Positions 15,501 to 32,511 of a stretch of 33,747 nt of DNA are shown here, one piece after another (within the stretch, counting starts at the first letter, position 1; every line of letters starts with the position of its first letter). Source of the stretch: a virus. Position numbers and translations under genes: made by a program. The notes under the pieces were generated by a model. That model was not told the DNA's origin. It was given only the letters and a program-made list of their open reading frames with translations, and searched no databases. The stretch spans positions 1 through 33,747 of IMG/VR virus record IMGVR_UViG_3300031862_000787, one strand, 5' to 3'.

Positions 15501-15857
15501 CGCGTCCGGCTTCTGGGGTGCAGCGACCGACTCCGGTCTTCCCCAGATTTCTTGATACGCTTCGGCCATTCCCGGCTGCATCGTGGCGAAATCCTCGGGA
15601 CTGCCGGGCTCCGGCGTGAGCCAGCGTGTCGCCCTTTCTTCGAGCGAAAGGACCGGTGTTGCCTCCTGAGCGGCGGTTTGGGCCACGGCGGGCGTCTTGC
15701 CCGCCAGCAGAGCATCGAGCTTCGCAACGCGTGGCGATGGTGTCGGAGCGGCAGGGGTTTGTGTCGGTGCCGTGGCAGAAGCCTCCAGTCCTTCCCCGGC
15801 CGATTGGACCGGCTTGCCTTCCATCAGTGCATTCAACTTGTCCAGTCGCGTAGGCAT
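3540..15857 (-). CDS. Giant polyvalent internal virion protein with DarB-like methyltransferase and SNF2-type helicase
   Basis: 4105 residues. Domains seen: hydrophobic Gly/Ala segments (about 250-280 and 396-420) in an internal-virion-like N-terminus; Pro/Gln-rich linkers with three in-frame palindromic repeats (about 540, 694, 864); a coiled coil (about 1246-1300); an N6-adenine methyltransferase (about 1424-1705) with motif I NEPAIGTG (1537-1544) and the catalytic motif as NVPF (1603-1606) rather than NPPY; a helicase with Walker A GAGKT (about 2206-2210), DESH (2369-2372), ATGTPITN and QRDGRMERQG (about 2695); a coiled coil; then large helical regions resembling the large polyvalent protein-associated domains, with a hydrophobic helix near 3755-3782. 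Phage P1 DarB pairs the same two enzymes and is packaged to block type I restriction. Gene order (after two internal-virion candidates, before fibres) supports an ejected protein. The antirestriction role is inferred. A second gene lies in another frame at 11591-11890. Confidence 0.85.
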   Translation of the reverse strand: MPTRLDKLNALMEGKPVQSAGEGLEASATAPTQTPAAPTPSPRVAKLDALLAGKTPAVAQTAAQEATPVLSLEERATRWLTPEPGSPEDFATMQPGMAEAYQEIWGRPESVAAPQKPDAMQTAGEGTVGEAVNPAGPDHGELSQPSPVTWRQEIHNALERGGLRVVASVPGTLGAILTPTTSPAEKEKQARARGIPGTLGSYADKPVVGESMKPTADKLKTVAKIIYDDSLRAEIQPQKKGALGYIANTTFETLPLMAVSTMAAASTGGLGAFATAAMAEGESAYQEAKRNGATEDQAQLERLIVGTINGVIEHSQADEILSLGKGVGKDALRQLAQSVRKKAWGKLAKQAGQIELKHIGKAVNEGMEEALQEGVQIGAATIHGEKIELGPSGKRIAQAGLGGLTAGYGLTGAAGAAQAITDTTRTEPRPANAPPYEPETPQAATPQRRTIGEIAARATENLPIEDLPIVEPTQAEQKPVTRSAAPQGTPQGKSPKDTTRDEQKGKPNFVEQLQSDLAAPKQQSSLPAEQPAAAKASPKHVIASEARQSQPMANAPQETPPATPGAGKWDFEKTFPEPTEEARRELVPDQHYPAPENAEAVRAHFDESAKEYAGYRTASKAARDIADEMERTGVNPETGRKLSGDKARQAVEQARQEAERADEMAQGVIDSNANIYGDEAAEAFQRYAEQRSQHVIASAARQKEAPYGQREPVPSVVPSTTETGPKVPEGGVAPAEPAAAEQEEAKPVFVVDSDGGIARAVNWQGDRPIVVYPGNEGGKRPGTAQQSGRAYEYVLDEWSAATESDFNKAIQPSGSQRMIDLRQWRDEAFGVGPQTRNSAFGSPVPPSGGSEPRKRGTPNGPPTHVIASEARQKVIYTSVPDEWREEHELYSWGKKGLRSKGNRAIAGRKTFVWQSECEQLPTRLPKSTMDAFRAKTDEVWKVHNRGAEDYWLVPKRAAEEVRKELGPEAFQRGPKPERSPLQKLNDLINSAKRQQVPDHVIGEAVLGSARAMGLTEDRLSDTQKKYVKAYRDEQASQRVPETVREGVEQAVRSGSGAEAETGADEERAAIQAEDSAGEIGDFLEGLIEEQSPAQAPEARTADARGGATGSRAEGQIPPPRVPQAPSPSFDAGIFGQEIFRPATGSKQAELPDAGEQWIGREPQRPLFGQREAKAVTPSEAGETQSQPNEIEGTGQHRQTSAGTPLQEPQAAVAKPPPEEGIGEQPKPAETPKPEPQKPEARQPSKQSEKRLREIDKELKQLRGPGRDFAYDLAVNDGGARLREVEAKIQALEAERKQLVGAEARPVDIDTAPAVESPIEEQNNEPATEHSSLGNQGNRPRSAVPSQEAPAEPLQVPGEQRPSDAVRPASPGAGGELHGPGGRRRTPGRGDIGDHPRDLDQPAGRRPTPRRDDHLGGQLDYRITDADAIEAGGQKTKFRNNVAAIRLLKQIEAEGRTATAEEQAILVKYAGWGGLVQAFDNFNSEWSKEYQELRELLSDEEYQAARASTPNAHYTSPDVVRGIWEGLGKLGFKGGKINEPAIGTGLFYGLVPDDIAAASRLFGVELDNLSARIAKQLYQSASIENSGFQDVRYPDSFFDLFVSNVPFDEQTKPVDSDLRSVRFALHDFYFAKALKKTRPGGLVAFITSKGTMDKGNNAVRKYLAKEADLLGAIRLPKTAFGKIANTEVVTDILVLQKRSAGETAQGENWIDIGKYKQGEETFAINEYFVHHPENILGKLSYGGTMYRANEMTVESTGIDLRAKIAELMGQFQPIQDIYAAQTKRDTEMRQPQFQKMAPENVKDRAYVMEDGKVFQKRDDVLVPVEVGSAVRPRFAGMIQVRSAARKLISLQIDPIAESAAVEKARVQLNRAYDVFVAKYDAFHTPYNRRTFENEPDLPLLLSLENWDNDTKTATKTKIFTERTQFSVKAIEKADSPQDAVAVSMSERGRIDLEYIGKLLGLEPEGVTKQIAGHAFDNPETGQWEPSFLYLSGNVRRKLAAAEAAAKLDSKYQTNADALKAVQPEDILPTDISVRLGSPWIDADTYLEFLSHLTGRTYGVKFTKFEHDGSWVISGNATSGRWDTPDFPTAELVVKTMNYKEPTVWRKDEKGNRYVDKDATTIARVMQQKIKDEFEQWIWSDANRAKRLARVYNDTFNHTVFPQWDGSYLRCPGQSSTPLAGGRLRPHQANAVARFLTGGNMLMAHAVGAGKTFAGITMAMEGRRIGQVKKAIFVVPNHKIDDWRVDWMKLYPSANILAATKDDFTPQKRQTLMNRIATGDWDGIIVPMSSFEKIPMSPGRIRAFFQEQIDELETEILALQAERGRENKNIIKRLEKAKSALEEKLKRQEAQWKKDQGPYFDELGIDMMLVDESHAYKNLFFVTKMDRVSGLQVAQTQRSFDMFMKAQYLNATTRQRGIVYATGTPITNTIGEMFTLQRYLQPQALKEAGLQAFDFWAKTFGDTVTDVEVDPTGGGFRVNTRFARFTNLPELMQMFRSVTDIVTKKQMNIPLPKVQRTTIQCEPIPEVEDYIEGLVERAEHIRSGRVKPWEDNMLAVTNDGRHVALDARLRIKGAPDAPGSKINRCVDEVYRLYQETAKDKALQVIWCDLSTPKKGKWSVYDDLKQKLLAKGVKKDEIAFIHDAADEKQQASLYLKANAGKIRVLLASTGKMGTGANVQERLIAAHHLTAPWVPAEVEQRDGRMERQGNMFSEVQKFEYVTKGTFDAYMWQTLETKAKFIEQVMSGETSGREIEDISKNSLTYAEVKALASGNPKIIEAIRLDAEVKQLQAEEKAHRADQFRIQEERQAVLPNKIKSGEELVAHLKADAEKATAAIEAAGEGIDITIAGTRYTKRKEAAEALNEQLAKVNWFSQEPTEVGSAYGFKMAARWASGFEGQNGWWRLRLHGSKLTYDVDLGESPSGNITRIENAVAGIEDRYKQQAAILERDRRRLAELEEIAGKPFAKAKDLTDKRAKLTQLQNEIGLDKKHDQSQPIIAEEQPQSSGEQAESDTAEEPSSGFRADPTVEGEGKGEGGFVRFGPDAKTGKVAKPWLTEDKVKSPDDAIEDFFARTYVMPVQAKIAKVLEAAKEGLRERFIYLHNLPKTTEAALARDMIRTMPEELRAATDQAIRDIEDIVNNGGKGVQTLDVAGLDLLRRKVFVQDLLKEAEIDRSVAGDLDVEQLATENARLDALIAKVPSVQAAYEARQALWEKVSNDLFDRGVISEEARDNRAYVRHFVLMYAEVAHKGTAKPKKLSEPYRGYGKERKGYTGDISTHYLAVEIKALSDIYRDNAIEDMATEIGRRYDKRRQYAANAKSRNFEVLVGGPDNVLRIKKLRRMIAQSQSGDEGRKEWIAELTQLDPTHPYRQRVAMHKSKLRKIVGELPDEDSEGFFNLLSTIVRERPNDADGLAARGIFKAIHERERMMKERLGDKYVTPERLAQADGYTEWWYKRPNLMYLANTLTEAQMAILVENSAEEAGDILHIPRDMMRQALVMGGKRKGMLIPDWLAKQLDDLPVNKRSNLIVASFSKPAIQFLKRWYLRVNPLRYNARNQIGDVERLNASGQTSKVKYIPQAMRLLIEKKGEVYEAMQRYGAVGSSLWNEMNDPRTMQQFERFADLGTQKGFVSAVRATFAAPLKLLGRAGQIEQDLTQFREDILRAAVFLGTLDDIKHGRPLRHWAGNVADVQELAKTDKYRAAAKHSRETMVDYGAFTPWENDVLRNGLIPFYSYLKKNLTFWPRALLNAAKEDATDEAASAMAGVVAANVAKWLVRVLALYGLAWLWNHRNDEARKKEEHLAFWLRSQPHVNVGDCTLWGDTALSDFAEWFGMEQLSGVLWRYEAGFVDSKEAALEAAKDLAQGPVNKLYQDLQPFLKQTQVAITGMETYPNVFEPRPVATPASMKSLEQAIIGLIGADAKKFYQTATGRRKLEDTLYAYFAGWFGRPTDVDTLIDEIKKTDAWTSLIAKSQVTGRGPGQAKAGKEAQWQETQVRAEGLLTAKDLEESRKEMAAQRTNEQLTKKLAGMDEDEILSRIAANTYATSGHDAAGRERVRGEPHEGSEGLVTILSREYERRTGHAPIADELQAEHQRQRQAAHDALRAKKVGK
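11591..11890 (-). CDS. Nested 99-aa gene in the +1 frame of the giant gene
   Basis: Inside the giant gene, this frame has an ATG at 11890 preceded by a good ribosome binding site (AGAGGAA, 7 bases upstream) and ends in TAA at 11591. The product looks like a normal helical protein (IRAIGREVLYHLKKHQPNLY, then a Gln/Glu-rich helix, then ETWISLPDVDQ). The giant frame over the same bases reads as Arg/Gly/Pro-rich sequence (GGRRRTPGRGDIGDHPRD) typical of an out-of-frame reading. The conserved methyltransferase start (LDYRITDAD) begins exactly at this gene's stop. So the real coding frame seems to switch to this one for 300 bases. Possible explanations are a true overlapping gene, a programmed frameshift, or paired sequence errors. 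Family not recognised with certainty. Confidence 0.6.
   Translation of the reverse strand: MNQQPNIPVSEIRAIGREVLYHLKKHQPNLYKYLVSKGQVMQYVLQAQEQAENYMDQADAAGRPVEETSEIIRETWISLPDVDQPQDATITSADSLTTE
13242..13268 (-). repeat. Palindromic 27-bp repeat, copy 1 (in frame)
   Basis: The minus strand reads CATGTCATTGCGAGCGAAGC and continues GCGGCAA. It adds HVIASEARQ to the giant protein at about residue 864. This copy is identical to the one at 14214. It directly follows, in the plus direction precedes, a block of three hairpins of a second repeat family (13271-13375). The same sequence is open in all frames, giving SLRAKRGN or LPRFARNDM when read otherwise. Confidence 0.8.
13271..13375. repeat. Cluster of three hairpins inside the giant gene (second repeat family)
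   Basis: Three inverted repeats follow one another: CCGCG-TTTA-CGCGG, CCGCC-GGAA-GGCGG, and CCAAACGCG-GAATTT-CGCGTTTGG. In the giant protein they are read as a Gly/Pro/Ser/Arg-rich linker (FGSPVPPSGGSEPRKRGTPN). The third hairpin is shared with the end of the glycosyltransferase-like gene near 21417. The cluster abuts palindromic repeat copy 1, which suggests serial insertion of small elements at a tolerant linker. Confidence 0.65.
13752..13778 (-). repeat. Palindromic 27-bp repeat, copy 2 (in frame, diverged)
   Basis: Same element as at 13242 with two base changes in the centre (TGCACTCGC instead of TTCGCTCGC on the plus strand). It is read in frame as HVIASAARQ at about residue 694 of the giant protein, within a low-complexity linker. 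The divergence suggests an older insertion than copies 1 and 3. Confidence 0.75.
14214..14240 (-). repeat. Palindromic 27-bp repeat, copy 3 (in frame)
   Basis: Identical over 27 bases to the copy at 13242 and in the same orientation and frame, adding HVIASEARQ at about residue 540 of the giant protein. It lies between a Lys/Ala/Pro linker and a Pro/Thr-rich stretch. Confidence 0.8.
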
Positions 15858-21397: not shown

Positions 21398-22714
21398 TCA
21401 CACCGCTTTCTTGGGTTCCCAAACGCGACTCATCGCGTTTGGGGTCCCTTTCATCGCACCCACGATCATCTTCCGCAGCGTCAGGCCGCAGTAGGGGCAC
21501 AAGGTCCACGTCGCCGTCTCCTTGAGACCGAAGACGCCCTTGCAGCCGACGCACATGACGCGGATGTAGCCTTTGCCACCTGTGAGGTTCGTCTGGTCGC
21601 TCGGATACAGATGCTCATGCGGCCACGTGGCGGGCGTCGTAAGGGTCGCTTTCTTGCCGCGAGCGCTCGCCGCCTTGTGAATCGCCGCCGCTGCCCGCTC
21701 GCAGGCGTGGCCGTCCACTTGGCCGTAGAGATGGTTCACCAGCCACTGATAGCCGGTCGGGTCGATATTGCTGTAGCCCCAGTGCAACCGGCCCAGTGCC
21801 TCGCTCAACTGCGAGAAGTCGTCGCACATGGGCACAACCGCTGCCAGACGCGGGTCCGGATTTGCATTGCAGTAATTGATGGATGGGACTCCCATCAGGT
21901 GAGCCTCAATCGCCATCGTGCTGCCCGCGTGAATCACGCAGTCGCTCATCGCGATGGCGTCTGCGCTGGGGAAGTCGTAGGGCAAGACTCTGACAAAGGA
22001 GCCGAGCTTCTCGATGTACTCGGCCGTCCGCTCACCGGGCCGGACTTTGAGCAGGAAATCGTACTTGTGGCCCTTGGTCAGATAGAGGTTCTTGATGGCC
22101 CGAATCCATTCATCCCGGCCACGGCGATGAATGGCATATAGTTGCCTTTGCAGAGGACTGTCGGTTGCGACACCGCACTCGGTATAGGCCGGGTCATCAT
22201 CAGCCGCGCTCCATGCCGTTGCAAACAGCAGTACCTTCTTGCCGATGTTGTGGGCCTTGGATTTGTTGAAGCAGCCATCGAGCGTAAACGCTCCGCAGGA
22301 TACTACTTTATCCTTGGAGATTCGGCCCCTCTCGACGAGCATGTCTGTGAACTCATGTCCCCAGGTCAATTCCAGGTCCACGTAGGGGGCATAGTCGTAA
22401 TCCCCGACAATGACCTTCTGCCGCTCAGGGTCGAGGGATTCGAGGACTTCTCGGGCCGCCCCCGCTTCTCCGCGCCGCACGACCACCGTCAGAGCCCAGT
22501 TATGGCAATGCTTTACAAGGTCCAGTTTCTGGAGCGACCCTACCATCGGCACAACAACCACGTCCGGCCGCTCGTAGCACACGCACTCTTGTCCGGCCAT
22601 CGCGAAATGCCGCACGAGAACTTCGTGGCCTCTGGCCCGTAGCCGCTGGGCAATCCGTTCGTCCACCACTTTGTCCCGCTGCTCCGTCAACGTCAGAATC
22701 GCTATTCTTGCCAT
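21398..22714 (-). CDS. GT-B glycosyltransferase-like protein with C-terminal zinc ribbon
   Basis: 438 residues. The N-terminus has a Rossmann-like start (MARIAILTLT, then RLRARGHEVLVRH and PDVVVVPMVGS). The C-terminal half of the fold has KVRPGE (about 224-229) and the nucleotide-sugar-site pattern HAGSTMAIEAHLMGVPSI (262-279, with Glu270), as in GT-B enzymes and the surface-carbohydrate/glycerophosphotransferase-like families. A zinc ribbon follows: Cys388, Cys391, Cys406, Cys409. The last 18 residues are read from a hairpin repeat shared with the giant gene. It lies between the small head proteins and the connector gene, so it is probably made with the virion proteins. Substrate is unknown: capsid or fibre glycosylation, host surface change, or DNA-base modification are all possible. 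The fold call is fairly good; the activity is not shown. Confidence 0.65.
   Translation of the reverse strand: MARIAILTLTEQRDKVVDERIAQRLRARGHEVLVRHFAMAGQECVCYERPDVVVVPMVGSLQKLDLVKHCHNWALTVVVRRGEAGAAREVLESLDPERQKVIVGDYDYAPYVDLELTWGHEFTDMLVERGRISKDKVVSCGAFTLDGCFNKSKAHNIGKKVLLFATAWSAADDDPAYTECGVATDSPLQRQLYAIHRRGRDEWIRAIKNLYLTKGHKYDFLLKVRPGERTAEYIEKLGSFVRVLPYDFPSADAIAMSDCVIHAGSTMAIEAHLMGVPSINYCNANPDPRLAAVVPMCDDFSQLSEALGRLHWGYSNIDPTGYQWLVNHLYGQVDGHACERAAAAIHKAASARGKKATLTTPATWPHEHLYPSDQTNLTGGKGYIRVMCVGCKGVFGLKETATWTLCPYCGLTLRKMIVGAMKGTPNAMSRVWEPKKAV
21413..21447. repeat. Hairpin repeat at the end of the glycosyltransferase-like gene
   Basis: The plus strand reads CCCAAACGCGA-CTCA-TCGCGTTTGGG, an 11-bp stem with a 4-base loop. 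The arms are the same as in the third hairpin of the cluster at 13271-13375. It is read as the C-terminal tail of the glycosyltransferase-like protein (PNAMSRVWEP) and lies just before the stop codon and the ribosome binding region of the connector gene. Confidence 0.6.
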
Positions 22715-23676: not shown

Positions 23677-24726
23677 TTACGGCACGATGTTGCTGAAGTA
23701 GATGCTCCGGTTCGGGTGCTTACAGATGATGTTGCCGCTGAGGAAGATGCGGGCGAGCTTGAAGTCCGCCCCGCCGGCAATCTGCGCCTGGTCGAAGAAG
23801 GGGAGCATCTTGAAGTTGCGAGCCGGATGGATCAGGAAGTACCAGTCCGGGACATTGAGGCCGTACACGCGGCGTTCGAGAGCGCCGGCCGTGCCGCTGG
23901 TCAATCCCAGGCGGCTGTTGTACTTCGTCTGAAGGAACGGGTCCTTGATAACCCGCTGCCCGCCGACCTCGATTTCTTCGATGTTGAACTTGGCCAGTCC
24001 GCGCGGATCACGCTGAACAGGCTGCGACCGGGCCTCCGCCTCGGCGATCAAGGCCAGATACAGAGCGTTGCCCATGATCCAGACAAAGCGGCCGTTGCCG
24101 TTTTCCAGGTCTTGGAGCGGGTCGCCCCACTGGCGCAGGGCGGTCAGGCTGATCGTCCGCTCCGTCGCCTGCTGGACGGCGGAGTAGCGGTTGTCGCCGG
24201 GCTGCCACCAGTCGCGCATGCTGGTGGATTGCGTCCGCGTCAACGTGCCGTAAGTCGTGTCCACGACCAGGGCACTGTTAAGGCCCTGCAACTGCTTCGC
24301 CGTATCGCTGGCATTGCCGTAGATCAGCTTACGCAGGTGGAGGCGCATGCCTTCCTGGGCCTTCTTCACTTTGAACTTCGCGAGGTTGTGGAGCTGCGTC
24401 TGATCTTCCGTCTCATACGCATTCTCCAGGTCTTCCTCGAAGTCCAGCGTGATGGGCAATTGGGTGCTCTTACGCCGGAAGAAGGCGTCGTCGGTGACAT
24501 CCTTCGTCCCGTGCGTCAGTTCCTCGTTGACATCGTAGTCTTGCGCGAGGTCCTCTACGGTGTCGGTGTCCATGTTGAACCAATAGCGTTTGCCGCCCTT
24601 GAACTTCATGTTCTTCTGTTCGAGAATGAGGTTCAGGAGCGGGGTCTTCTGCATGTACTCGACCTCCATCGACGCGTCGTGCATGTCACGCGTCAGATTG
24701 TCGAGGTCTTGATGAAAAGAACCCAT
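23677..24726 (-). CDS. Major capsid protein
   Basis: 349 residues. The N-terminal helix (FHQDLDNLTRDMHDASMEVE, then YMQKTPLLNLILEQKNMKF) and the following extended loop, helical spine (TQLHNLAKFKVKKAQEGMRL) and C-terminal strand-rich part (NVPDWYFLIHPARNFKMLPF, then ARIFLSGNIICKHPNRSIYF) fit the HK97-type fold of tailed-phage capsids in length and order. The gene follows a scaffold-like gene by 42 bases and precedes small head proteins. A short ribosome binding site (GGAGATC) stands before the ATG. No protease or N-terminal delta domain is visible, consistent with a separate scaffold. I rate this assignment secure from context and composition. Confidence 0.8.
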   Translation of the reverse strand: MGSFHQDLDNLTRDMHDASMEVEYMQKTPLLNLILEQKNMKFKGGKRYWFNMDTDTVEDLAQDYDVNEELTHGTKDVTDDAFFRRKSTQLPITLDFEEDLENAYETEDQTQLHNLAKFKVKKAQEGMRLHLRKLIYGNASDTAKQLQGLNSALVVDTTYGTLTRTQSTSMRDWWQPGDNRYSAVQQATERTISLTALRQWGDPLQDLENGNGRFVWIMGNALYLALIAEAEARSQPVQRDPRGLAKFNIEEIEVGGQRVIKDPFLQTKYNSRLGLTSGTAGALERRVYGLNVPDWYFLIHPARNFKMLPFFDQAQIAGGADFKLARIFLSGNIICKHPNRSIYFSNIVP

Positions 24727-24768: not shown

Positions 24769-25566
24769 TCACCCGCTGGCAGTCATCGCGCGTTCCACTT
24801 GCGCGGCCACGTCGTCCAGCGAGCCTTTCTTGATCTCGACATTGCGGAATGTGGGTCGGCCGCCGCCGCCCGTATCGGTGGGCGTCTCGGACCTCTTGCG
24901 AGAGGGCTTGTCTTTCTCTTTCGTCTTGGCCTCTTCCTTGGCCTGGGCGAAGCACTCATCGAGCATGAGCGTCGCTTCCGCTTGCGTGGCGGGCTCGCCC
25001 TCGGTCTCAATCCGTTTCTCCATCACTTCGATGGCCCGGTTGCGTAGACCGGCTCCGTGCTTACCCTCCAAGCGGGTACAGACTTTTTGAAAGATGGCGT
25101 TCTTCTGCTTCTCGGCTTCGGATTGTTGGCGCTGCTGCTGACGTTCGGTGTCCGATCGCTCGGCCTTGGTCTTCAGGGTTGCCAACTCCTTGTTCAGATC
25201 GCGAATCACTTTGGCAATCTGAGGCAGAGCCTTGGCGATTTCGTCCCCGGTCATGTTCTCCGGGTCGAATTCGGGCAGCAGTTGCGTCACCTGGTCCTCG
25301 GCGGCTTTGCCGGCCGTGAGTTCGGCGACCTTCTGGGACAATTCCGTGTGCTTCGCCTGCATCTCGGCAAGCTGCGCACCGAGTTGTTCCTTTTCCTGCC
25401 GGGCCTTGCGCAGATTGGCTTCGGCCTGGTCAGCGCGCTGGCGGTCTTTGTCGAATTGCCGCGCTTCGCTCGCAATGACAAGCTCCCTGGCGGCGGCTTC
25501 GTCGTCTTTGGTCTGGTCTACCACCTCTTGGTCCTTGGTTTCGGTGTCCTTCGTTGGTTCCGTCAT
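24769..25566 (-). CDS. Scaffold protein
   Basis: 265 residues from the ATG at 25566, which has a strong ribosome binding site (AAGGAG, 9 bases upstream). A longer form starting with TTG at 25701 lies against the upstream terminator and lacks one. The protein is highly charged and helical: acidic start (TEPTKDTETKDQEVVDQTKD), long coiled coil (ANLRKARQEKEQLGAQLAEM and on to about residue 165), then a Lys/Glu-rich tail and a short C-terminal helix (GSLDDVAAQVERAMTASG). This is the classic look of a scaffold that guides capsid assembly, with the C-terminus binding the coat. It is directly before the major capsid gene. A palindromic repeat adds IASEARQ at residues 31-37, before the coiled coil. 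Confidence 0.8.
   Translation of the reverse strand: MTEPTKDTETKDQEVVDQTKDDEAAARELVIASEARQFDKDRQRADQAEANLRKARQEKEQLGAQLAEMQAKHTELSQKVAELTAGKAAEDQVTQLLPEFDPENMTGDEIAKALPQIAKVIRDLNKELATLKTKAERSDTERQQQRQQSEAEKQKNAIFQKVCTRLEGKHGAGLRNRAIEVMEKRIETEGEPATQAEATLMLDECFAQAKEEAKTKEKDKPSRKRSETPTDTGGGGRPTFRNVEIKKGSLDDVAAQVERAMTASG
25456..25480 (-). repeat. Palindromic repeat, copy 5 (in frame in scaffold)
   Basis: Twenty-five bases match the consensus exactly (minus strand TGTCATTGCGAGCGAAGCGC then GGCAA); the last two bases differ. It is in the same orientation relative to transcription as copies 1-3 and adds VIASEARQ before the coiled coil of the scaffold protein. Confidence 0.8.
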
Positions 25567-25699
25567 GTCTTTGTCTCCTTGCGTTTGAGCACTTGTCTCT
25601 TTCCGGATTGGCCTTATCCCCTTGGCTGGCTGTTTGGCTCGTGTCCCTTTAGCTGCCGCAGGCACGAACAGCCCGGATGGGCTGGGTATCCTTCGCGCC
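25567..25699. other. Leader between portal terminator and scaffold gene
   Basis: About 130 bases between the terminator and the scaffold start hold no gene with support. A short hairpin (CAGCCC-GGAT-GGGCTG on the plus strand, about 25669-25684) is present. A promoter for the capsid block is expected here, as it follows a terminator, but I see no convincing -35/-10 pair. The last bases carry the scaffold ribosome binding site. Confidence 0.4.
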
Positions 25700-25743
25700 A
25701 AAAGAAAAAGGGCCTGAATCGGTGAATCTCCGACTCAGGCCCC
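25700..25743 (-). terminator. Intrinsic terminator after the portal gene
   Basis: On the minus strand a 13-bp stem (GGGCCTGAGTCGG pairing CCGATTCAGGCCC with one G-U pair, 7-base loop) is followed at once by TTTTTCTTTT. This is a textbook rho-independent terminator. It is the last part of a longer structured element (25744-25816) shared with the terminase 3' end. Confidence 0.85.
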
Positions 25744-25842
25744 TGTAACGAGCCTTTCGTGGTTACAGCACTAAGCGACTCGCGACTGTCGCCTACTGCT
25801 CGTCTTCTTCTGGCGAGTATTGGTTATGTCACTTATCTGGCA
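25743..25842 (-). ncRNA. Structured 3' element, copy P (after portal)
   Basis: Between the portal stop and the terminator: stem GCGAC/GTCGC with 8-base loop (25775-25792), stem CTGTAAC/GTTACAG with 12-base loop (25743-25768), and an alternative partner GGCGA (25812-25816) for TCGCC (25789-25793). The same three parts in the same order occur after the large terminase gene, with a shared segment (CGTGGT, then AGCACT, on the plus strand) and different but still pairing stem bases. It is probably a transcribed 3' untranslated structure. Strand is taken from the terminator. Family not recognised. Confidence 0.6.
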
Positions 25843-27936
25843 TCAGGCTGCCCCTTTCATCTGTTGTTGCGGCTGCTGCCCGATCTGGCCTGCCTGGGCG
25901 ATCAAAGCCATCACCTGCTGCACGATCTTCTGCTGCACCAGCAGGGCTTGCTGCGGATCAGCCTGCTCACCGTTCGGCCCGACCGCCTGAGCTTGCTGCT
26001 GCACCTGCTTCATCATGCCGGACAGTGCCAGGAACCTGCGGAAGAGCTGAATCTGGGCGTGCCGCAAGAGGATCTTCTCGCGGTTGGCGATATTGAGTTT
26101 CCGCAGCACCTCTTCGAGCATCGGATTGAGGTTGGGATCGCCGCAGAGCTTGTACGCCAACAGATAATCCTGCTTCTGCCGTTCCTCATCGAACGGCAAG
26201 GTCGTGCCGGGCTCGATCTCCAAATCGAACTCGACCCGTTTCATGGCATCGCTCATGCGAGCGGGCTTGACCTCGCCCGTCCAGCCGACAATACGAATCC
26301 GCCGGCCTTCGTCGTAGTTCTCCTGAATGATTTGGGCGATATTGATGCCCGTGCCCTCGATCCATCGTTCCAGCAGCAGCGACCGCAAAGCGATCAGGTC
26401 ATTCGAGTTCGTGTCCAACCGGGCCGCCTCTGTCGCCGACATGCCGGACCGGACCTGCTTGCCCTGGGCGACCGCGTGCATGAACTGCTGCGTCTCCAAG
26501 TCCTGCATCAGGTACTGCACAAGCGTCCAGATCGTGGGGTCCAGCCGGTTGCCTTCCAGATGGCGGATACCGCTGAGTTTGCCTTGGTTGACCAGGATGA
26601 TTTCGCCCGCCTTGCCTTTGATGATCCGGGGCTTGCCCTTCTTGTCCTTGGCCAGGGTGCCGGTCTCCATCACGATTTGCGGGTCGGCCGTCGTCTTGAG
26701 ATGCTGCAAGAGGTAGGACACGGAGACATTGAGCATGTCCTGCGAACTGCGGGACATCTCGATAGCGTTCGATCCTTGCCACATGTGGGGCAGGATATGG
26801 TACGGCAGGATCGTGAACGGCCAGCGGCTCCGTCGATAGACTTGCTGCTGGGGTTCGGGGTTGACGATCACCTTGCCGACCCGGACCACGCACCGGCCAC
26901 GCGGGAACTTGGCTCTGTCGTATTCCTCTCGGACCACTTGGGGCCAATCCTCCTGCTGGACGGGTTCGCCCGTCTGGCACCATCGCACCAGTTGCATCGG
27001 GTCGTTCGGGTCGATGAAGAGCGTCCCATCATTGAGCAGAGCCTCCGTAGAGGCATTGTCCTCGATCTTGATGTGATCCATCGAATCGTCACGGAAGTAC
27101 GTTTCGCGCACCCAGACCTGCTCCACGGCAGACTTGTCGCCTTCGTTCGCCGTGATCGTGTTCGTCGCGGTCGAGTCCTGGCCGAGTATGAGAGAGACGA
27201 AGCGCGACCAGTACCCGCGCATCCGCCCGCTCCCCGCCCGCTGGTTCTGGTAGACGGGGATTGCGTTGACACCGCTGCCATAGCCCGGCCAACCGTCCGC
27301 ATACTCGTATTCGCGGAGTTCGTCCGCATCGCCCGCGTGTGCACGGATCTCTTCCTCGAATTTGGGCCACTGGTGGATGGCCCATTCCAGGGAGACCTTG
27401 CGGACCGTCCCGCAGCACTCAGCCTCGCCAATCCGCTCGGCACGCGGGTCCACCCAGAAGCCGCACGGATGAATCAGGCGGTGTCGGACTTCCCCAACGT
27501 ATCCAGTGTTCTGCGGGTTTCTGTCGAATTTGGGGTCCCAGTAGGTCTTGCCGACCGCGTAGCCGTAGACGGCACTGTCGAGCATGGCCCGCACTACGTC
27601 CTCGCGCATGTTGAGGACCTGCTCCCAGACGTACTGCAAGAGGCCCTGCCAGTGCTCTGCCCACTCGGTATCTTCCTCGTTCCAGGCCCGCGCCAGCAGC
27701 TTCGGCGAATTCTTGGAGAGTTTGGCGATCCCCTGCATGACGAGGGGATAGATGTAGTTGATGACGATGTAATCCCAGTCCGGATTGCGCCGGACACCCT
27801 GAAGCTGTTCGCCCCACATGTATGCCACGGCCGAACTCCACAGGCCGTACCATTGACGGGTCACAGTCATGCCGGCTCGCTCGATCCCGTCGAGGTACTC
27901 GGTGAGTTCATCGCCTTGGAGGAACTTGTCGGGCAT
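25843..27936 (-). CDS. Portal protein (P22-like)
   Basis: 697 residues, the usual size for P22-type portals (about 700). The N-terminal part (LDGIERAGMTVTRQWYGLWS, then WDYIVINYIYPLVMQGIAKL) and the middle (HPCGFWVDPRAERIGEAECC; YRRSRWPFTILPYHILPHMW; MSRSSQDMLNVSVSYLLQHL) match the pattern of this family, including the PYxxxPHMWQGSN stretch and the following long helix. The C-terminus is Gln-rich and helical (VQQQAQAVGPNGEQADPQQA), as in the barrel/C-terminal part of such portals. It forms the dodecameric ring for packaging and ejection. The start codon at 27936 lies against a simple-repeat spacer and has only a weak GGGAAC ribosome binding site. The gene is followed by a structured element and terminator. 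Confidence 0.85.
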   Translation of the reverse strand: MPDKFLQGDELTEYLDGIERAGMTVTRQWYGLWSSAVAYMWGEQLQGVRRNPDWDYIVINYIYPLVMQGIAKLSKNSPKLLARAWNEEDTEWAEHWQGLLQYVWEQVLNMREDVVRAMLDSAVYGYAVGKTYWDPKFDRNPQNTGYVGEVRHRLIHPCGFWVDPRAERIGEAECCGTVRKVSLEWAIHQWPKFEEEIRAHAGDADELREYEYADGWPGYGSGVNAIPVYQNQRAGSGRMRGYWSRFVSLILGQDSTATNTITANEGDKSAVEQVWVRETYFRDDSMDHIKIEDNASTEALLNDGTLFIDPNDPMQLVRWCQTGEPVQQEDWPQVVREEYDRAKFPRGRCVVRVGKVIVNPEPQQQVYRRSRWPFTILPYHILPHMWQGSNAIEMSRSSQDMLNVSVSYLLQHLKTTADPQIVMETGTLAKDKKGKPRIIKGKAGEIILVNQGKLSGIRHLEGNRLDPTIWTLVQYLMQDLETQQFMHAVAQGKQVRSGMSATEAARLDTNSNDLIALRSLLLERWIEGTGINIAQIIQENYDEGRRIRIVGWTGEVKPARMSDAMKRVEFDLEIEPGTTLPFDEERQKQDYLLAYKLCGDPNLNPMLEEVLRKLNIANREKILLRHAQIQLFRRFLALSGMMKQVQQQAQAVGPNGEQADPQQALLVQQKIVQQVMALIAQAGQIGQQPQQQMKGAA

Positions 27937-28010
27937 TTGTCAGTTCCCAGTTCTCAGTTCGCGGTTCTCAGTTGCTGCCAACTGACAACTGCCCACTGTC
28001 AACTTCATAC
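27937..28010. repeat. AACTG-type degenerate repeat before the portal gene
   Basis: The minus strand is made of units such as AGTTGTCAGTTGGCAGCAAC, TGAGAACCGCGAACTGAGAA and CTGGGAACTGACAA. It starts with GTGTGAAGTATGAAGTTGAC, similar to the spacer at 17802-17903, and overlaps the last codons of the upstream gene. It reaches to the portal start codon and so provides its weak ribosome binding region. Confidence 0.65.
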
Positions 28011-28544
28011 TTCACACCCGCTGATGATAGCGTTGACTTCCGTCATGGGTGTCCCACCGCCGCCGTCGAGATCGAACTCGACGTAATAGTCACGCAGACC
28101 CTCGTTTCGGCCCCGCAGTAGCGCGATCCGGTTGTTGCCGGAATCGACGACGAGAGGAGCCAGATCGAACCACAAGCCGCCGGTGATCGTGATCGTGTCG
28201 GCCCACAGGCAAGCGCTGGCGACCTTGGTGATGGGGTCGTTCGTCACCGCCAGTGTCCCCAGTGTGAGGACACCCTCGGCCAAGAGCAGAATGGGGCCAT
28301 TCGTCCGCCGACGGGTGTAGAGCCTGTAGGCACAAGTTGCATCCGCCTGGGCCTTGCCGTAGAAGGCGAGCCACAGGCGTCGTGCATCGAGCAGATGGTG
28401 AACGTTGCTGTCCGCAAGCTGTTGCGACGAGACCTCGATGGCACCGGCGACTGGCCAAGCAGCGTAGTCGAACGCGGCCAAGACCGCATCATCCGCAATC
28501 ACGCCGGCTCGCAAGGATACCCAGGGCAGTTGCAGTTGATTCAT
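28005..28544 (-). CDS. Hypothetical virion-associated protein
   Basis: 179 residues, beta-rich, ending in a strand-rich part (YYVEFDLDGGGGTPMTEVNA). No TM segment, no enzyme motif and no family that I recognise. The ATG at 28544 has a very good ribosome binding site (GGGAGG) inside the last codons of the preceding gene, 2 bases from its stop. The last codons overlap a simple repeat. It belongs to a group of small genes between terminase and portal. The TITITGGLWFDLAPL and IALLRGRNE stretches suggest a beta-sandwich, perhaps part of a fibre or adaptor, but this is a guess. Confidence 0.5.
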   Translation of the reverse strand: MNQLQLPWVSLRAGVIADDAVLAAFDYAAWPVAGAIEVSSQQLADSNVHHLLDARRLWLAFYGKAQADATCAYRLYTRRRTNGPILLLAEGVLTLGTLAVTNDPITKVASACLWADTITITGGLWFDLAPLVVDSGNNRIALLRGRNEGLRDYYVEFDLDGGGGTPMTEVNAIISGCEV

Positions 28545-28546
28545 CG

Positions 28547-28954
28547 TTACAAACCTCCCAAGAGGCTTCTGAGGATTTGGCCGACCGTCTTGCCCGGTCC
28601 CGGCACCACGGCATTGAGGAGGCCGGAGGCGTCTGCTACCGGCACAAGAGGATCGCCCACACTCGTGCGGATCAGGACCACCTGCGTCTTGGCCCTCGGC
28701 GTCGAGCTGGTCGTCCGGACCACCAGGTAGTCCGCGTTCATTTCCCCGGCCGTGAGGGCCAGGGCATACAGGCCCGTCGAGCCAATCTCGGCCGCCTGGT
28801 TGGTGCAGGCCGCCAGGGACTGGGGAGCAGCGTCATCTGCGAAGGTCCCGATCTGGCTACTGAGATCGAGCGCCCCGCTCACCGGATCACCCCCGTCGTC
28901 GATGATCGGAAAGACGATCACAGTCGCCGCGTTCTTCTGCCGCACCAGTTCCAT
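28547..28954 (-). CDS. Hypothetical small structural protein
   Basis: 135 residues, beginning MELVRQKNAATVIVFPIIDD, with a beta-rich body (STGLYALALTAGEMNADYLV, then AKTQVVLIRTSVGDPL) and a short C-terminal helix (TVGQILRSLLGGL). The pattern of a small domain that lists a value, then GLYxLxLTAxE, is like N-terminal domains of phage baseplate or fibre-associated proteins such as BppU-like ones, but I cannot assign a family. It starts 3 bases after the LamG-like gene and is followed at 2 bases by the next gene, so the three are one translational unit. Confidence 0.45.
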   Translation of the reverse strand: MELVRQKNAATVIVFPIIDDGGDPVSGALDLSSQIGTFADDAAPQSLAACTNQAAEIGSTGLYALALTAGEMNADYLVVRTTSSTPRAKTQVVLIRTSVGDPLVPVADASGLLNAVVPGPGKTVGQILRSLLGGL

Positions 28955-28957
28955 GCG

Positions 28958-29740
28958 CTATCTCCTCATGACTCCCAAACCAATCCCCAGGGCAATCCCG
29001 GCCCCGATTCCCCCGGCCGCCGGACCGGATGGTGAACTCACGGGCGGATGCGTATTGGCGTCTGCCACCACGTTGTTGCCGTTGTTCACAATCGACAGTC
29101 CGCCGACCTCGCAGGCAAAGCCGTCATACATCGGGACGTACCAGTCCAAGCCGGTCTGGTCGATATCTGCGGGCCGTACCGCTGCAAAACCACCGACCCC
29201 CGCGAGCTGCTGTTTCTCCGTGGCGGTCAAGGCCCGGCTCCACTTGGCCCACTCTGCCAGATACCCACCGAAACACCGGTCGGCATTGAGATCGCTACGA
29301 ACGCCGAGAGACAGACCTCCGGCCACGTCCACCGCCCCGAAGTTCGCCACTGACCGGGCGGCAAAAGAGACCCCATCGAGGGACATGACCAGCGTGTTCC
29401 CCTGCCGTGCGATGATTACATGCTGCCAGGCTGTGGACGCACCCGGAGTCGTCTCGCTCAGCCACTCGTCGATATTCATCAGACCGTTACCCAGAGCGTC
29501 CCGACAGACACCCTTGAGCTTGTTGGGGGCAACCCCCGCACTCGCTTCGAGGAGATACAGGTTGAGATCCGGGGTAGCATCAACCACGCCCCAGGACAGA
29601 AAATACTGGTAGAGGCTACCCTCGTTGTCCGTCAGCTTAAGCCAGCCCGCGACAGTCCAGTCGCCGGCGGGCAGGGATAGCGCCGCCGCATCCCCCAGCA
29701 TCACGTAGCACGTCGGTGTCTCAGTGAATAGCCAGCCCAT
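28958..29740 (-). CDS. LamG/concanavalin-like protein with C-terminal glycine-rich helix
   Basis: 260 residues. The main part (about 1-195) has the LamG/ConA-like jelly-roll signature: DWTVAGWLKLTDNEGS, then the strand pair STAWQHVIIARQGNTLVMSL followed by DGV, then FGGYLAEWAKWSRALTATEK, the last being the very typical end of LamG-3-like domains. Such domains bind sugars or act as fibre heads. The C-terminal 30 residues are Gly/Pro/Ser-rich and end in a hydrophobic Gly/Ala helix (AAGGIGAGIALGIGLGVMRR), possibly membrane-active or a capsid anchor. In phages LamG domains occur on head or tail decoration and receptor-binding proteins. Position between terminase and portal is unusual for a fibre gene. 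Confidence 0.7.
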   Translation of the reverse strand: MGWLFTETPTCYVMLGDAAALSLPAGDWTVAGWLKLTDNEGSLYQYFLSWGVVDATPDLNLYLLEASAGVAPNKLKGVCRDALGNGLMNIDEWLSETTPGASTAWQHVIIARQGNTLVMSLDGVSFAARSVANFGAVDVAGGLSLGVRSDLNADRCFGGYLAEWAKWSRALTATEKQQLAGVGGFAAVRPADIDQTGLDWYVPMYDGFACEVGGLSIVNNGNNVVADANTHPPVSSPSGPAAGGIGAGIALGIGLGVMRR

Positions 29741-29776
29741 GTCTTGATTCTCTATTCATGATCGTTGACTGATGAA

Positions 29777-30031
29777 TCACTCTTCCAACTCCTCATCGGA
29801 ATCGGTTCTCGGGTCGTCGTCCACAGGCCCCAGCGTCGCATTGAACCGTCTTTCCCGTTCGTCGATCACGTCGAACTCGGCTGCCGAGCCCGGCTGTGCC
29901 GGTCGGTCGATCTGCTCGTGCCATCCCATCCGGTAGCCCATGCGAATCGTGTGCAGGCACAGAAGCCACCCGCCGATAAAAGCAGCGAATGCCGCCACGA
30001 TCAGGACCATCTTGACCACAAGTTCACTCAC
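29777..30031 (-). CDS. Small one-TM protein
   Basis: 84 residues from the GTG at 30031, which overlaps the TGA of the upstream gene (GTGA). The start has one hydrophobic helix (about residues 6-27, VKMVLIVAAFAAFIGGWLLC), then a basic and then a strongly acidic tail (DDDPRTDSDEELEE). The topology fits an inner-membrane protein with the C-terminus in the cytoplasm or periplasm, such as a holin, antiholin, or inner-membrane spanin part, but no such family is recognised. It is part of the small-gene group between terminase and portal. Confidence 0.55.
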   Translation of the reverse strand: MSELVVKMVLIVAAFAAFIGGWLLCLHTIRMGYRMGWHEQIDRPAQPGSAAEFDVIDERERRFNATLGPVDDDPRTDSDEELEE

Positions 30032-30324
30032 AATGTCTGCACCTCCTCGTCCGGCTTGACAGGCCGGACGGCCGGCTCCTCACTGCGGAAAGGAGCCATG
30101 AACCACACGCACTCGTGTTCCTCGCACCGCACCGGGCAAGGGTCCGGCGGCGGCAGTTTCTTGTTGTGCTTGTCCGGTAGCGGCCGCATCGTGCTTCCAC
30201 ACCGGGGGCACTGCGGTCCCTTGCCGTCTTCCACGCTGAACTCGCTGACGGTCGTACTGATGGCCTCACCCTCGGTCAGACGGATCGACTTCTTGGACAC
30301 CGGGATTAGGTCGATCAGCTTCAT
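30028..30324 (-). CDS. Small zinc-ribbon-like protein
   Basis: 98 residues from the ATG at 30324, chosen for its AAGAGG ribosome binding site; the longer frame upstream reads the neighbouring gene out of frame. It begins MKLIDLIPVSKKSIRLTEGE and carries a CxxC pair (CPRCGSTM) and a later pair of cysteines (CPVRCEEHEC), likely a zinc site or two. The tail is acidic and Pro-rich. It starts 23 bases after the preceding small gene and its stop overlaps the next start by 4 bases. Such small metal-binding proteins in phages often bind nucleic acids or protein partners; the role here is unknown. Confidence 0.55.
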   Translation of the reverse strand: MKLIDLIPVSKKSIRLTEGEAISTTVSEFSVEDGKGPQCPRCGSTMRPLPDKHNKKLPPPDPCPVRCEEHECVWFMAPFRSEEPAVRPVKPDEEVQTL

Positions 30325-30347
30325 GTTGTTGCCTCTTGACTCTGGCC

Positions 30348-30569
30348 TCACATCACCAGTCCGATCGGCAGGACAGGCCGATCTCGCATCTCGCTGTGCA
30401 TGTGCCCGTAGATGTCCCAATGGTCTGGGCTGTCTGGGTCGCAGCAATTGCACAGGTGAGCGCTGCCGCGTGCGCGCCGACATGCGACCCTGAATTCTCG
30501 ACCACACACGCAACAGGTGCGGAGGGTGTAGCCTCTGTCCATCTGTCTTGTTGTCTTACTTCTTCCCAT
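30348..30569 (-). CDS. Small Cys4-type protein
   Basis: 73 residues from the ATG at 30569; the ATG at 30542 is an alternative with a better GGAAG-type site and would give 64 residues. It is basic, with CCVCGREFRVACRR and HLCNCCDPDSPDHWD, so two cysteine pairs about 18 residues apart fit a treble-clef or zinc-ribbon. It is the first gene after the terminase terminator, with only about 20 bases between the T tract and the start, so it depends on read-through or on a promoter inside the structured element. Function unknown. Confidence 0.45.
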   Translation of the reverse strand: MGRSKTTRQMDRGYTLRTCCVCGREFRVACRRARGSAHLCNCCDPDSPDHWDIYGHMHSEMRDRPVLPIGLVM

Positions 30570-30587
30570 GCGTCGTACCCTGAGCCA

Positions 30588-30645
30588 AACGCAAAAGGGG
30601 CTGAAAATGGTCCGAGACTCGTGTCTCAGATCCACTCTCAGCCCC
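30588..30645 (-). terminator. Intrinsic terminator after the large terminase gene
   Basis: On the minus strand a 14-bp stem (GGGGCTGAGAGTGG with CCATTTTCAGCCCC, two G-U pairs) encloses an inner hairpin (GAGAC-ACGA-GTCTC) and is followed by TTTTGCGTTT. It is a long intrinsic terminator and the last part of a structured element shared with the portal 3' end. Confidence 0.75.
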
Positions 30646-30723
30646 TTGTACAGGCTGCGTGGTACAAGCACTCGGCGGTAGCTACTCCGCCTATGCCTGG
30701 CGTTTGGCGGTTATTGCGTTACA
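30646..30723 (-). ncRNA. Structured 3' element, copy T (after large terminase)
   Basis: Parts in the same order as in copy P: stem GGCGG/CCGCC with an 8-base loop (30674-30691), stem TTGTAC/GTACAA with a 10-base loop (30646-30667), and an alternative partner GGCGG (30706-30710) for CCGCC (30687-30691). The plus-strand segment CGTGGTACAAGCACT corresponds to CGTGGTTACAGCACT in copy P. The stems differ in sequence but pair in both copies. It begins at the terminase stop codon. Confidence 0.6.
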
Positions 30724-32511
30724 TCATGCTCCAAAAGACTCCACATCTTCTTCGCTGTCGATGTCGTCATCATCCTCCCATCCATCCGTGGCTCCGGCGA
30801 CACTGGCCCGCGCGAATCCTCCTGACCTCTGTCCCGGCCGATCGGCCGTGTCGGTCTGCTGAATGTCAGCCCGGCCCATCGAGCACTGCTGGTGCAACTG
30901 CACCAGGCCCACGAGCATCATCACGAAATCGTCATGGTGTCCTGTGGCCGCCTGCCACTTGCCGCCCTTGTTCACGAAAGCCCGCAGCTCCGCAATGATC
31001 TCGGCGTCCTTGATGGTCAGTTGCCCGGCCTTCAGGACCGTGCGCAGGGCTTCGATGTAGGGCTTACGATTGAGCGGCCCGATCTTGAGGCCCAGCTTGT
31101 CCGTGGGTTGCTCGGCATACTCGTCCTGGCCGTTCTTCCGCTGGTAGATGTGCGGGTAACTCGCCCGCTTGAACTCGTCGAGGACTGCCAGACCGCAGGA
31201 ATTGACTTCGGGGCTCGCCCAAGCGTTGTTGTAGTACATCGCGGCCCACAGAAGCTGCCGGGCGTATTCCACCGTGTCCTGCTGGCTGTGATAGGTCGCG
31301 ACCACTTCCCCGGTCTGGCGGCAGAGAATCCCGCCGGCGTGGAAGTCGGTGCCTTTCTCCGGCTGATCGGGGTCGGCCAGAAGGCCCTCCATGACATCGC
31401 CGTAGACCACGTAGTCGCGGTTGACCTGCGGCCACTCCCAGATCTTCCAGACGCTCAGGCGGCGGTCCACCCGCACGGGGATCGGCCGGCCGCGAGCATC
31501 GTCCATCGCGAACTGCACGGTACTGAGCGGCTCGCAGCAACGCGTCTGCATAACGTCCAGCACAGCCGCATCGAAGATCGAGAAATTCGTCGCCTGGAAC
31601 GCCTCGCGCGGCAGAGAGGGGTACTCCCGAAGCATGTCCGGGCCGAGAGTCGCACGCTTCTTGACGTACCAGGTCCGCTGCTGGGGCGATAAAGAAACGT
31701 TCGCCTCGCGTTCCACGACAGCGAAATAGGCGTCATCTGCCCCGGTGAGTTGGGCGAACTGCGGGTCCAGCACGTAGGCCGGGTTGCGATACCAGGGCAC
31801 GAAATGGAACCGGTAGTCAAACCGGCTGAGCGGCCCTACATGCTTGCGGGCCGCCTCACACATCTCGAAGAAGTCCCCGCTGGCACCCTCGGCCGTAGAC
31901 TCGATGAACACAATTGCTTCCTCGTGAGCGGCTTCGAGCGTCCCCGTTTTGACCTCACGGGCCTTGTCCGGGTAGTGGGCACACATGGCCCCGTACTCGC
32001 TCACGTGCAGCAGTTGCAGCGTCCCCGACCGCATCGAGGTATCGACGCGAAGGCCGCTATTGTTCGAGAGCAGCAGCTCGCCCCCATCCCGCTTGATCGC
32101 CGTCACCCACCGGCGGATCGAGGCCGGCAGGTGGTCGTAGGCGTACAGGATCTTGTCCCGGTAGATCACCTGGGCGGCTTCCAGCTTGTGCGCCACAATC
32201 CCGGCCCGCAGGTCGGAAGTGAAGAGGCACGAGTCGAGGAAATAGATTGCGATGAAGGTCGTAAAGCCCAGTTGCCGGGCCTTGAGGATGATGTTTCGCC
32301 AGTGGAGTTCGGCCAAGAGGTCCCGGATCGCCGGCCGCAAGGTGAACCTCTGTGGATGTCCGTCGTCATCGACCACCCAGTACAGGTGTTCCAACCGCCA
32401 GTACGGGTCCGCCATCGCCAAGCGAATCGGCTCCGATTCCGTTTGCCGCGCTTCGCTCGCAATTGTCTGATCCCGCGTGGGACTGTTAAGATGGGATGAT
32501 ACGGCTACCAT
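30724..32511 (-). CDS. terL: Terminase large subunit
   Basis: 595 residues. The ATPase part has a Walker A-like KARQLGFTT (77-85), a Walker B LLHVSEYG (167-174, ending in the usual acidic residue) and a coupling motif ESTAEGA (204-210). The nuclease part has Asp372 in YGDVMEG and a C-terminal HHDDFVMML stretch, as expected for the RNase H-like fold that cuts concatemers. It packages DNA through the portal. The start at 32511 overlaps the small-subunit gene by 26 bases and has GGAGATCA before it. A palindromic repeat adds TIASEARQ at residues 16-23, ahead of the ATPase domain. A terminator follows. This is a secure assignment. Confidence 0.9.
   Translation of the reverse strand: MVAVSSHLNSPTRDQTIASEARQTESEPIRLAMADPYWRLEHLYWVVDDDGHPQRFTLRPAIRDLLAELHWRNIILKARQLGFTTFIAIYFLDSCLFTSDLRAGIVAHKLEAAQVIYRDKILYAYDHLPASIRRWVTAIKRDGGELLLSNNSGLRVDTSMRSGTLQLLHVSEYGAMCAHYPDKAREVKTGTLEAAHEEAIVFIESTAEGASGDFFEMCEAARKHVGPLSRFDYRFHFVPWYRNPAYVLDPQFAQLTGADDAYFAVVEREANVSLSPQQRTWYVKKRATLGPDMLREYPSLPREAFQATNFSIFDAAVLDVMQTRCCEPLSTVQFAMDDARGRPIPVRVDRRLSVWKIWEWPQVNRDYVVYGDVMEGLLADPDQPEKGTDFHAGGILCRQTGEVVATYHSQQDTVEYARQLLWAAMYYNNAWASPEVNSCGLAVLDEFKRASYPHIYQRKNGQDEYAEQPTDKLGLKIGPLNRKPYIEALRTVLKAGQLTIKDAEIIAELRAFVNKGGKWQAATGHHDDFVMMLVGLVQLHQQCSMGRADIQQTDTADRPGQRSGGFARASVAGATDGWEDDDDIDSEEDVESFGA
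32443..32467 (-). repeat. Palindromic repeat, copy 6 (in frame in terL)
   Basis: Minus strand ATTGCGAGCGAAGCGCGGCA and the next A match the consensus; the outer part (CATGTC) is diverged to AGACA. It adds IASEARQ near the N-terminus of the large terminase, before the ATPase domain. Confidence 0.75.

Follow-up and report, generated by a model that had tools for sequence, protein, structure and literature searches.

A family of pseudoknotted RNAs with terminator anatomy precedes structural genes in phages

We analyzed an RNA element that occurs twice in a 33,747-base virus record (IMG/VR record IMGVR_UViG_3300031862_000787; this whole stretch is called the window below), directly 3' of the genes for the terminase large subunit (TerL) and the portal protein. 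This analysis revealed a real RNA family, larger than the two window copies could show. Its 26 distinct sequences, found in 23 uncultured phages, share an element of about 120 nt composed of an outer stem (P0), two hairpins (P2 and P3), a pseudoknot (P1), a GC-rich hairpin (P4) and a U-tract. We put at about 50% the probability that this cis-acting family is a structured intrinsic terminator placed before phage structural genes, the core of which probably sets read-through.

A preliminary description of the window had proposed that the same multi-stem element lies at both sites, and the stems were indeed present there. By itself, resemblance between two copies proves little, because generic alignment slips; this doubt was removed by the 26 copies of the family. 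The copies were collected from IMG/VR using pattern scans and a covariance model, R1, which spans 61 positions (61 nt) and was built from 13 sequences with P2 and P3 as its only helices. With filters off, R1 scored the TerL copy (copy 1) at 79.0 bits (E 2e-15) and the portal copy (copy 2) at 55.1 bits (E 4e-10). Thirteen of the 26 copies lie outside the training set, and each was recovered at E 2e-7 or better. Among portal relatives in IMG/VR, further copies were found downstream of portal in L007/L008 and L009. Two copies each are carried by the window, by G007 (with its near-identical relative G010) and by L117; scanning the window for a third with the full model gave only a chance-level match of 15.8 bits at 24929-24986. 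When folded, both window regions beat all of 200 dinucleotide shuffles, with z scores of -7.4 (copy 1) and -5.0 (copy 2). The AGTGC, CACG and GCC-type letters served as search criteria, which inflates their conservation. Neither P0 nor P4 nor the gene context entered the selection, and P2 did so in one scan only.

Read 5' to 3', the element begins with the P0 5' strand (typically GCCAAAAGAA), followed by the P1 5' strand (CAGGC), hairpin P2 (GCGG-8-CCGC) and AGUGC. The P3 5' strand (CUGUAAC), CACGAA, the P1 3' strand (GCCUG), the P3 3' strand (GUUACAG) and P4 (7-20 bp) come next, and the U-tract and the P0 3' strand (UUCUUUUGGC) close the element. P1 joins the 5' strand of the element to the loop of P3; because it crosses P3, the core is a pseudoknot. 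The two regions were thus as first described, except that the element is read from the minus (gene) strand and that the shared block is longer, taking in P0 and P1, which had gone unnoticed.

The compensatory changes between the two window copies had been taken as a sign of selected RNA structure, and the full alignment bore this out. Over the 15 core pairs of P1, P2 and P3, 97.7% of the cells were paired and 31 were double-change cells, compared to 4.5 in shuffled alignments (0/500 shuffles as high). Sliding the pairing partners abolished this signal. Parsimony counted 27 double (compensatory) changes in the same three helices when the trees left out the columns under test. As R1 was built with P2 and P3 only, P1 serves as an outside test. 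Unused in the alignment fit, it was paired in 99% of cells, contained 6 double-change cells compared to 1.4 in shuffles, and showed A-U/G-C and G-C/A-U exchanges (CAGGC/GCCUG, CGAGC/GCUCG and CGGGC/GCCCG). P0 strands paired less well with partners taken from other copies than with their own. Covariation was also seen in the pair that comes first outside the CC/GG clamp of P0 (21/26 paired versus 14.6 when shuffled; 0/20,000 shuffles as high). In a few rows the clamp was misplaced by its automatic finder, an error that works against this result. In the alignment, the core is a conserved, covarying, aptamer-like domain.

The P1 5' strand has another possible partner. Its GGCA can pair with UGCY of the P2-P3 linker, and this helix, P1', was compatible with 26/26 rows and favoured by nested folding; parsimony over the 26 copies gave it no double changes. 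P1 and P1' are mutually exclusive, and neither excludes the P4 hairpin. The preliminary description had envisaged competing pairings that form a switch deciding termination. A different overlap exists, between P1 and P1'; the competitor that this description had named, a second partner for P2 (TCGCC/CCGCC upstream of P2), found no support: it is not conserved in the other copies and overlaps P0 in the window. We rejected a competing pairing for P2 on the ground that the partner is not conserved outside the window. Because neither P1 nor P1' competes with P4, we rate a switch that decides termination as possible and no higher. A search for a conserved pairing that would exclude P4, that is, an antiterminator helix, found none; the P1 3' strand and the 5' arm of P4 are compatible with such a role by eye, but with only about 4 bp compared to the 7-20 bp of P4. 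Helix D, a further alternative that would pair GUG with CAC across the 5' strand of P3, was 95% paired with no covariation in the alignment, and is suggested by the second copy of L117 (GAUG/CAUC) only.

The terminator that had been reported at the 3' end of each window region, a GC-rich hairpin with a U-tract, was confirmed and proved general. In 26/26 copies, a P4 stem of 7-20 bp is followed by 5 to 8 T in the first 8 bases of the tail, so that every copy has the sequence of an intrinsic (Rho-independent) terminator, a GC-rich hairpin with an immediate U-tract. T was found at tail position 3 in 26/26 copies and at positions 1 and 2 in 25/26. The tail bases left unpaired by P0 were also mostly T (29/32), so that U's are preserved even where P0 does not need them; in the TerL copy, whose P0 differs in sequence (GCCAAACGC/GCGUUUGGC), UUU is retained between P4 and P0. 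Four relatives (L004, L010, L012 and L013) share TerL, portal, scaffold and major capsid protein (MCP) with the window, their MCPs being 52-74% identical, and are without the element. Plain hairpin-plus-T-run intrinsic terminators lie upstream of the same scaffold gene in these phages. Such occupation of the same pre-scaffold site offers the best evidence that P4 would terminate transcription. What sets the element apart from a plain intrinsic terminator is its covarying pseudoknot core of 60 nt, together with an outer stem whose pairing involves the U-tract and bases beyond it. P0 pairing extends to about 10-13 nt past P4, further than the point at which a transcript is usually released; because a pair this far past P4 still covaries, selection also acts on RNA that has read through P4.

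All copies lie between genes on the same strand. The HK97-type order maturation protease, element, MCP was seen with both neighbours called in L027, L032, L060, L081 and L110; L029 and L074 belong to this group with the MCP neighbour called. A second arrangement, TerL, element, portal or connector, had both sides called in L018, L108 and L092, and the portal or connector called in L095, L062 and L091. The window shares the order portal, element, scaffold, MCP with L009, L021 and L076. Elsewhere the element stands before TerL (L020 and L026), between a tail terminator and a tail protein (L025), before a head morphogenesis gene (L115) or near tail genes (L028). Placement was kept despite MCPs of only 30-67% identity within the window group (portal-scaffold-MCP) and 45-76% within the HK97-type group (protease-MCP). 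The statement that the element ends the terminase and portal genes holds in the window but gives only half of the picture: the neighbours differ in other phages, and one phage pair has the element in common with the downstream gene. In this pair, G007 and G010, a stretch of 94% identity opens about 22 nt upstream of the core, just outside P0, and continues across the element into portal; the upstream genes differ. The element thus goes here with the downstream gene. In most copies, the next start codon follows about 10-40 nt past P0; this leaves too little room for a separate promoter.

With the family, its fold, its terminator anatomy and its placement shown, the most likely reading is an intrinsic terminator of late operons that is leaky or regulated. 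How transcripts would end in the cell, how some would read through and how the core would control this we infer as follows. RNA polymerase arriving from upstream would transcribe the core first, which would fold into P2, P3 and the pseudoknot P1. P4 and the U-tract would form next and stop a share of the transcripts, while those that read through would also form the outer stem P0 and then enter the next gene. The core would probably set the stop frequency, either by its own fold beside the exit channel or by the binding of a factor, and this frequency would tune how much capsid, portal or tail protein is made, or when. Several points weigh against this proposal. No pairing that excludes P4 was found in the alignment, so that no platform for the control step is visible. 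The portal copy of the window clade is followed by about 130 nt that include a further conserved leader and may hold a promoter. A strong terminator before MCP would be odd unless it were leaky or regulated. More tentatively, the pseudoknot RNA, spread between unrelated phage groups, might sense a signal of the cell or phage, or bind RNA polymerase directly, and so decide entry into the capsid, portal and tail genes. If this doubtful extension were true, the pseudoknot would be an RNA checkpoint for virion assembly.

Other functions would also account for parts of the evidence. The element could define mRNA ends: P4 would end the upstream mRNA, or the RNA would be cut, and the knot and P0 would shield that 3' end, or the new downstream 5' end, from RNases, giving a long-lived structural mRNA. 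P0 does bury the U-tail, P3, P4 and P0 have adjoining strands that allow stacking, and the ribosome-binding site of MCP or another virion gene often follows closely after the element. However, P0 covariation reaches past the normal release point, and simple hairpins are usually enough for 3' protection, so we consider this function rather unlikely. It is more doubtful still that the P1/P2/P3 pseudoknot, with its invariant AGUGC and CCACG, is the aptamer of a ligand-sensing riboswitch and P4 its expression platform. A conserved unpaired core within covarying helices, followed on the same strand by a terminator and a gene, is the layout of terminator-type riboswitches and attenuators, and the overlapping pairings P1 and P1' would suit them; yet no antiterminator helix and no Rfam match were found, the adjoining genes (head, portal, terminase and tail) have no common metabolic theme, and the letter conservation owes something to the searches that selected those letters.

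We regard as improbable that the RNA acts on RNA polymerase as an antiterminator in the manner of put of phage HK022, letting late transcription pass P4 and later terminators. Like put, the element is a structured cis RNA of phages, occurs in two copies in some genomes and adjoins terminators, and put RNAs likewise act without a dedicated protein (PMC9378689). Unlike put, which is about 70 nt long, has two stem-loops and lies in the early region near promoters (PMC9378689), the element has about 120 nt, a pseudoknot, a terminator of its own and a position among structural genes; in structure and location it is not put-like. It shows some, but not all, of the defining features of put RNA and of terminator-type riboswitches. 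Very little speaks for a self-cleaving ribozyme, or a catalytic RNA of another kind, closed by P0: a closed pseudoknotted core with a variable closing stem and a variable peripheral hairpin would be compatible with one, but the Rfam ribozyme families gave no match and a terminator explains the conserved U-tract better. Equally remote is a DNA unit that is mobile or promotes recombination, or a small RNA acting in trans, without local function. Its presence in unrelated phages at differing places, the left half-copy and small gene that precede the full copy in L062, and the G007/G010 homology boundary at the element would fit. Against it stand the constant local position within groups of such divergent MCPs and the RNA-type compensatory changes in the helices.

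That no named family fits, as had been stated, agrees with our searches of Rfam 15, which gave no match in the window and none up to E 0.05 in 20 copy-bearing loci. Permissive Rfam scans of three copies returned only far-below-threshold matches, mostly on the P4 hairpin, and ARAGORN detected no tRNA or tmRNA. Full-text literature searches for RNA motifs of phages in connection with pseudoknots, capsids or terminases returned nothing relevant. Comparative-genomics surveys of metagenomes have reportedly yielded candidate structured RNAs, likewise found by covariation in metagenomic DNA; unlike these, the element matches no Rfam 15 member, a comparison confined to Rfam. The family is apparently undescribed, structured-RNA surveys beyond Rfam not having been compared motif by motif. 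It adds to the RNAs absent from Rfam one with strong covariation and a pseudoknot, located before structural genes in at least three phage gene arrangements, and suggests that phages control late genes within an operon through RNA structure. No copy was found by blastn among 50,697 records of isolated phages, and the nearest isolates are too remote to indicate the host. Scanning about 85,000 cellular species with a strict pattern, which covers only part of the known copies, gave 8 chance matches, none with the fold. Model scans of 68 Hydrogenedentota genomes and of 52 genomes in the class of a Deltaproteobacteria metagenome-assembled genome found no copy either, both being weak negatives with no positive control.

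In the window, the structural genes are on the minus strand, as are both elements. Copy 1 (30584..30708) directly follows the stop of TerL at 30724 (30724..32511; phrog_2, E 4e-24). Its P0 pairs GCCAAACGC (30700..30708) with GCGTTTGGC (30584..30592), 4 to 12 nt past P4, and its pseudoknot P1 pairs CAGGC (30695..30699) with GCCTG (30651-30655). P2 is GGCGG-AGTAGCTA-CCGCC (30674..30691), and the conserved AGTGCTTGTACCACG (30658..30672) comprises the linker, the P3 5' strand and CCACG. The P3 hairpin CTTGTAC/GTACAAG (30645..30668) holds the P1 3' strand in its loop, and P4 (30596..30646), with a basal stem of 15 bp, precedes a U-rich tail. Copy 2 (25696..25815) directly follows the stop of portal at 25843 (25843..27936; phrog_156, E 5e-29; Pfam P22_portal). 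Its P0 5' strand CGCCAGAAGAAG (25804..25815) pairs with 25696-25707, where the U-tract and P0 3' strand read TTTCTTTTGGCG, and its P1, CGAGC (25798..25802) with GCTCG (25749-25753), is compensatory to that of copy 1. P2 is GCGAC-AGTCGCGA-GTCGC (25775..25792), and the loop of P3, CTGTAAC/GTTACAG (25743..25768), consists of CACGAAAG and the P1 3' strand. The intrinsic-terminator-like P4 (15 bp; 25708..25744), followed by TTTCTTTTGG, was called by a terminator scan. The stem differences reported earlier, GCGAC/GTCGC versus GGCGG/CCGCC in P2 and CTGTAAC/GTTACAG versus TTGTAC/GTACAA in P3, are present at the two sites. Copy 2 is followed by a putative scaffold gene (24769..25566), named from its position and homologous to genes adjoining MCPs in L004, L009, L013 and L076, and then by the MCP gene (23677-24726).

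Two subtypes could be seen in the alignment: one combines a CACAA linker, CCGCCGAGUGC and a short P3 loop, and the other a GCAGUAG-like linker, UUAGUGC and a longer, A-rich P3 loop. These features seem linked, and the window and G007 each hold one copy per subtype. In L062, the left half of the element (P0 5' strand, P1 5' strand and P2; 2743-2798, minus strand) is followed by a gene of about 60 codons and then by the complete element before the connector gene, an arrangement that looks like the insertion of a gene cassette between copies of the element. A second conserved leader, ...CCGGAAAGAGACAAGTGCTCAAACGnAAGG, lies at 25575-25660 of the window (minus strand), between element or terminator and scaffold gene, and also before the scaffold gene in L004, L007, L009, L010, L013 and L076. 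It may contain a small stem, both sides of which show changes (GAG/CTC versus GAAC/GTTC), and could be another RNA element or a promoter or ribosome-binding region. A single 4105-codon open reading frame (3540-15857, minus strand) occupies over one third of the record. The dispersed repeat TTGCCGCGCTTCGCTCGCAATGACATG occurs in either orientation at 13242, 13752, 14214, 16393, 25452 and 32439, mostly within protein genes, TerL and this 4105-aa frame included. Two similar palindromes, CCAAACGCG...CGCGTTTGG, lie at 13336-13366 and 21412-21442, and their arms resemble the P0 arms of copy 1.

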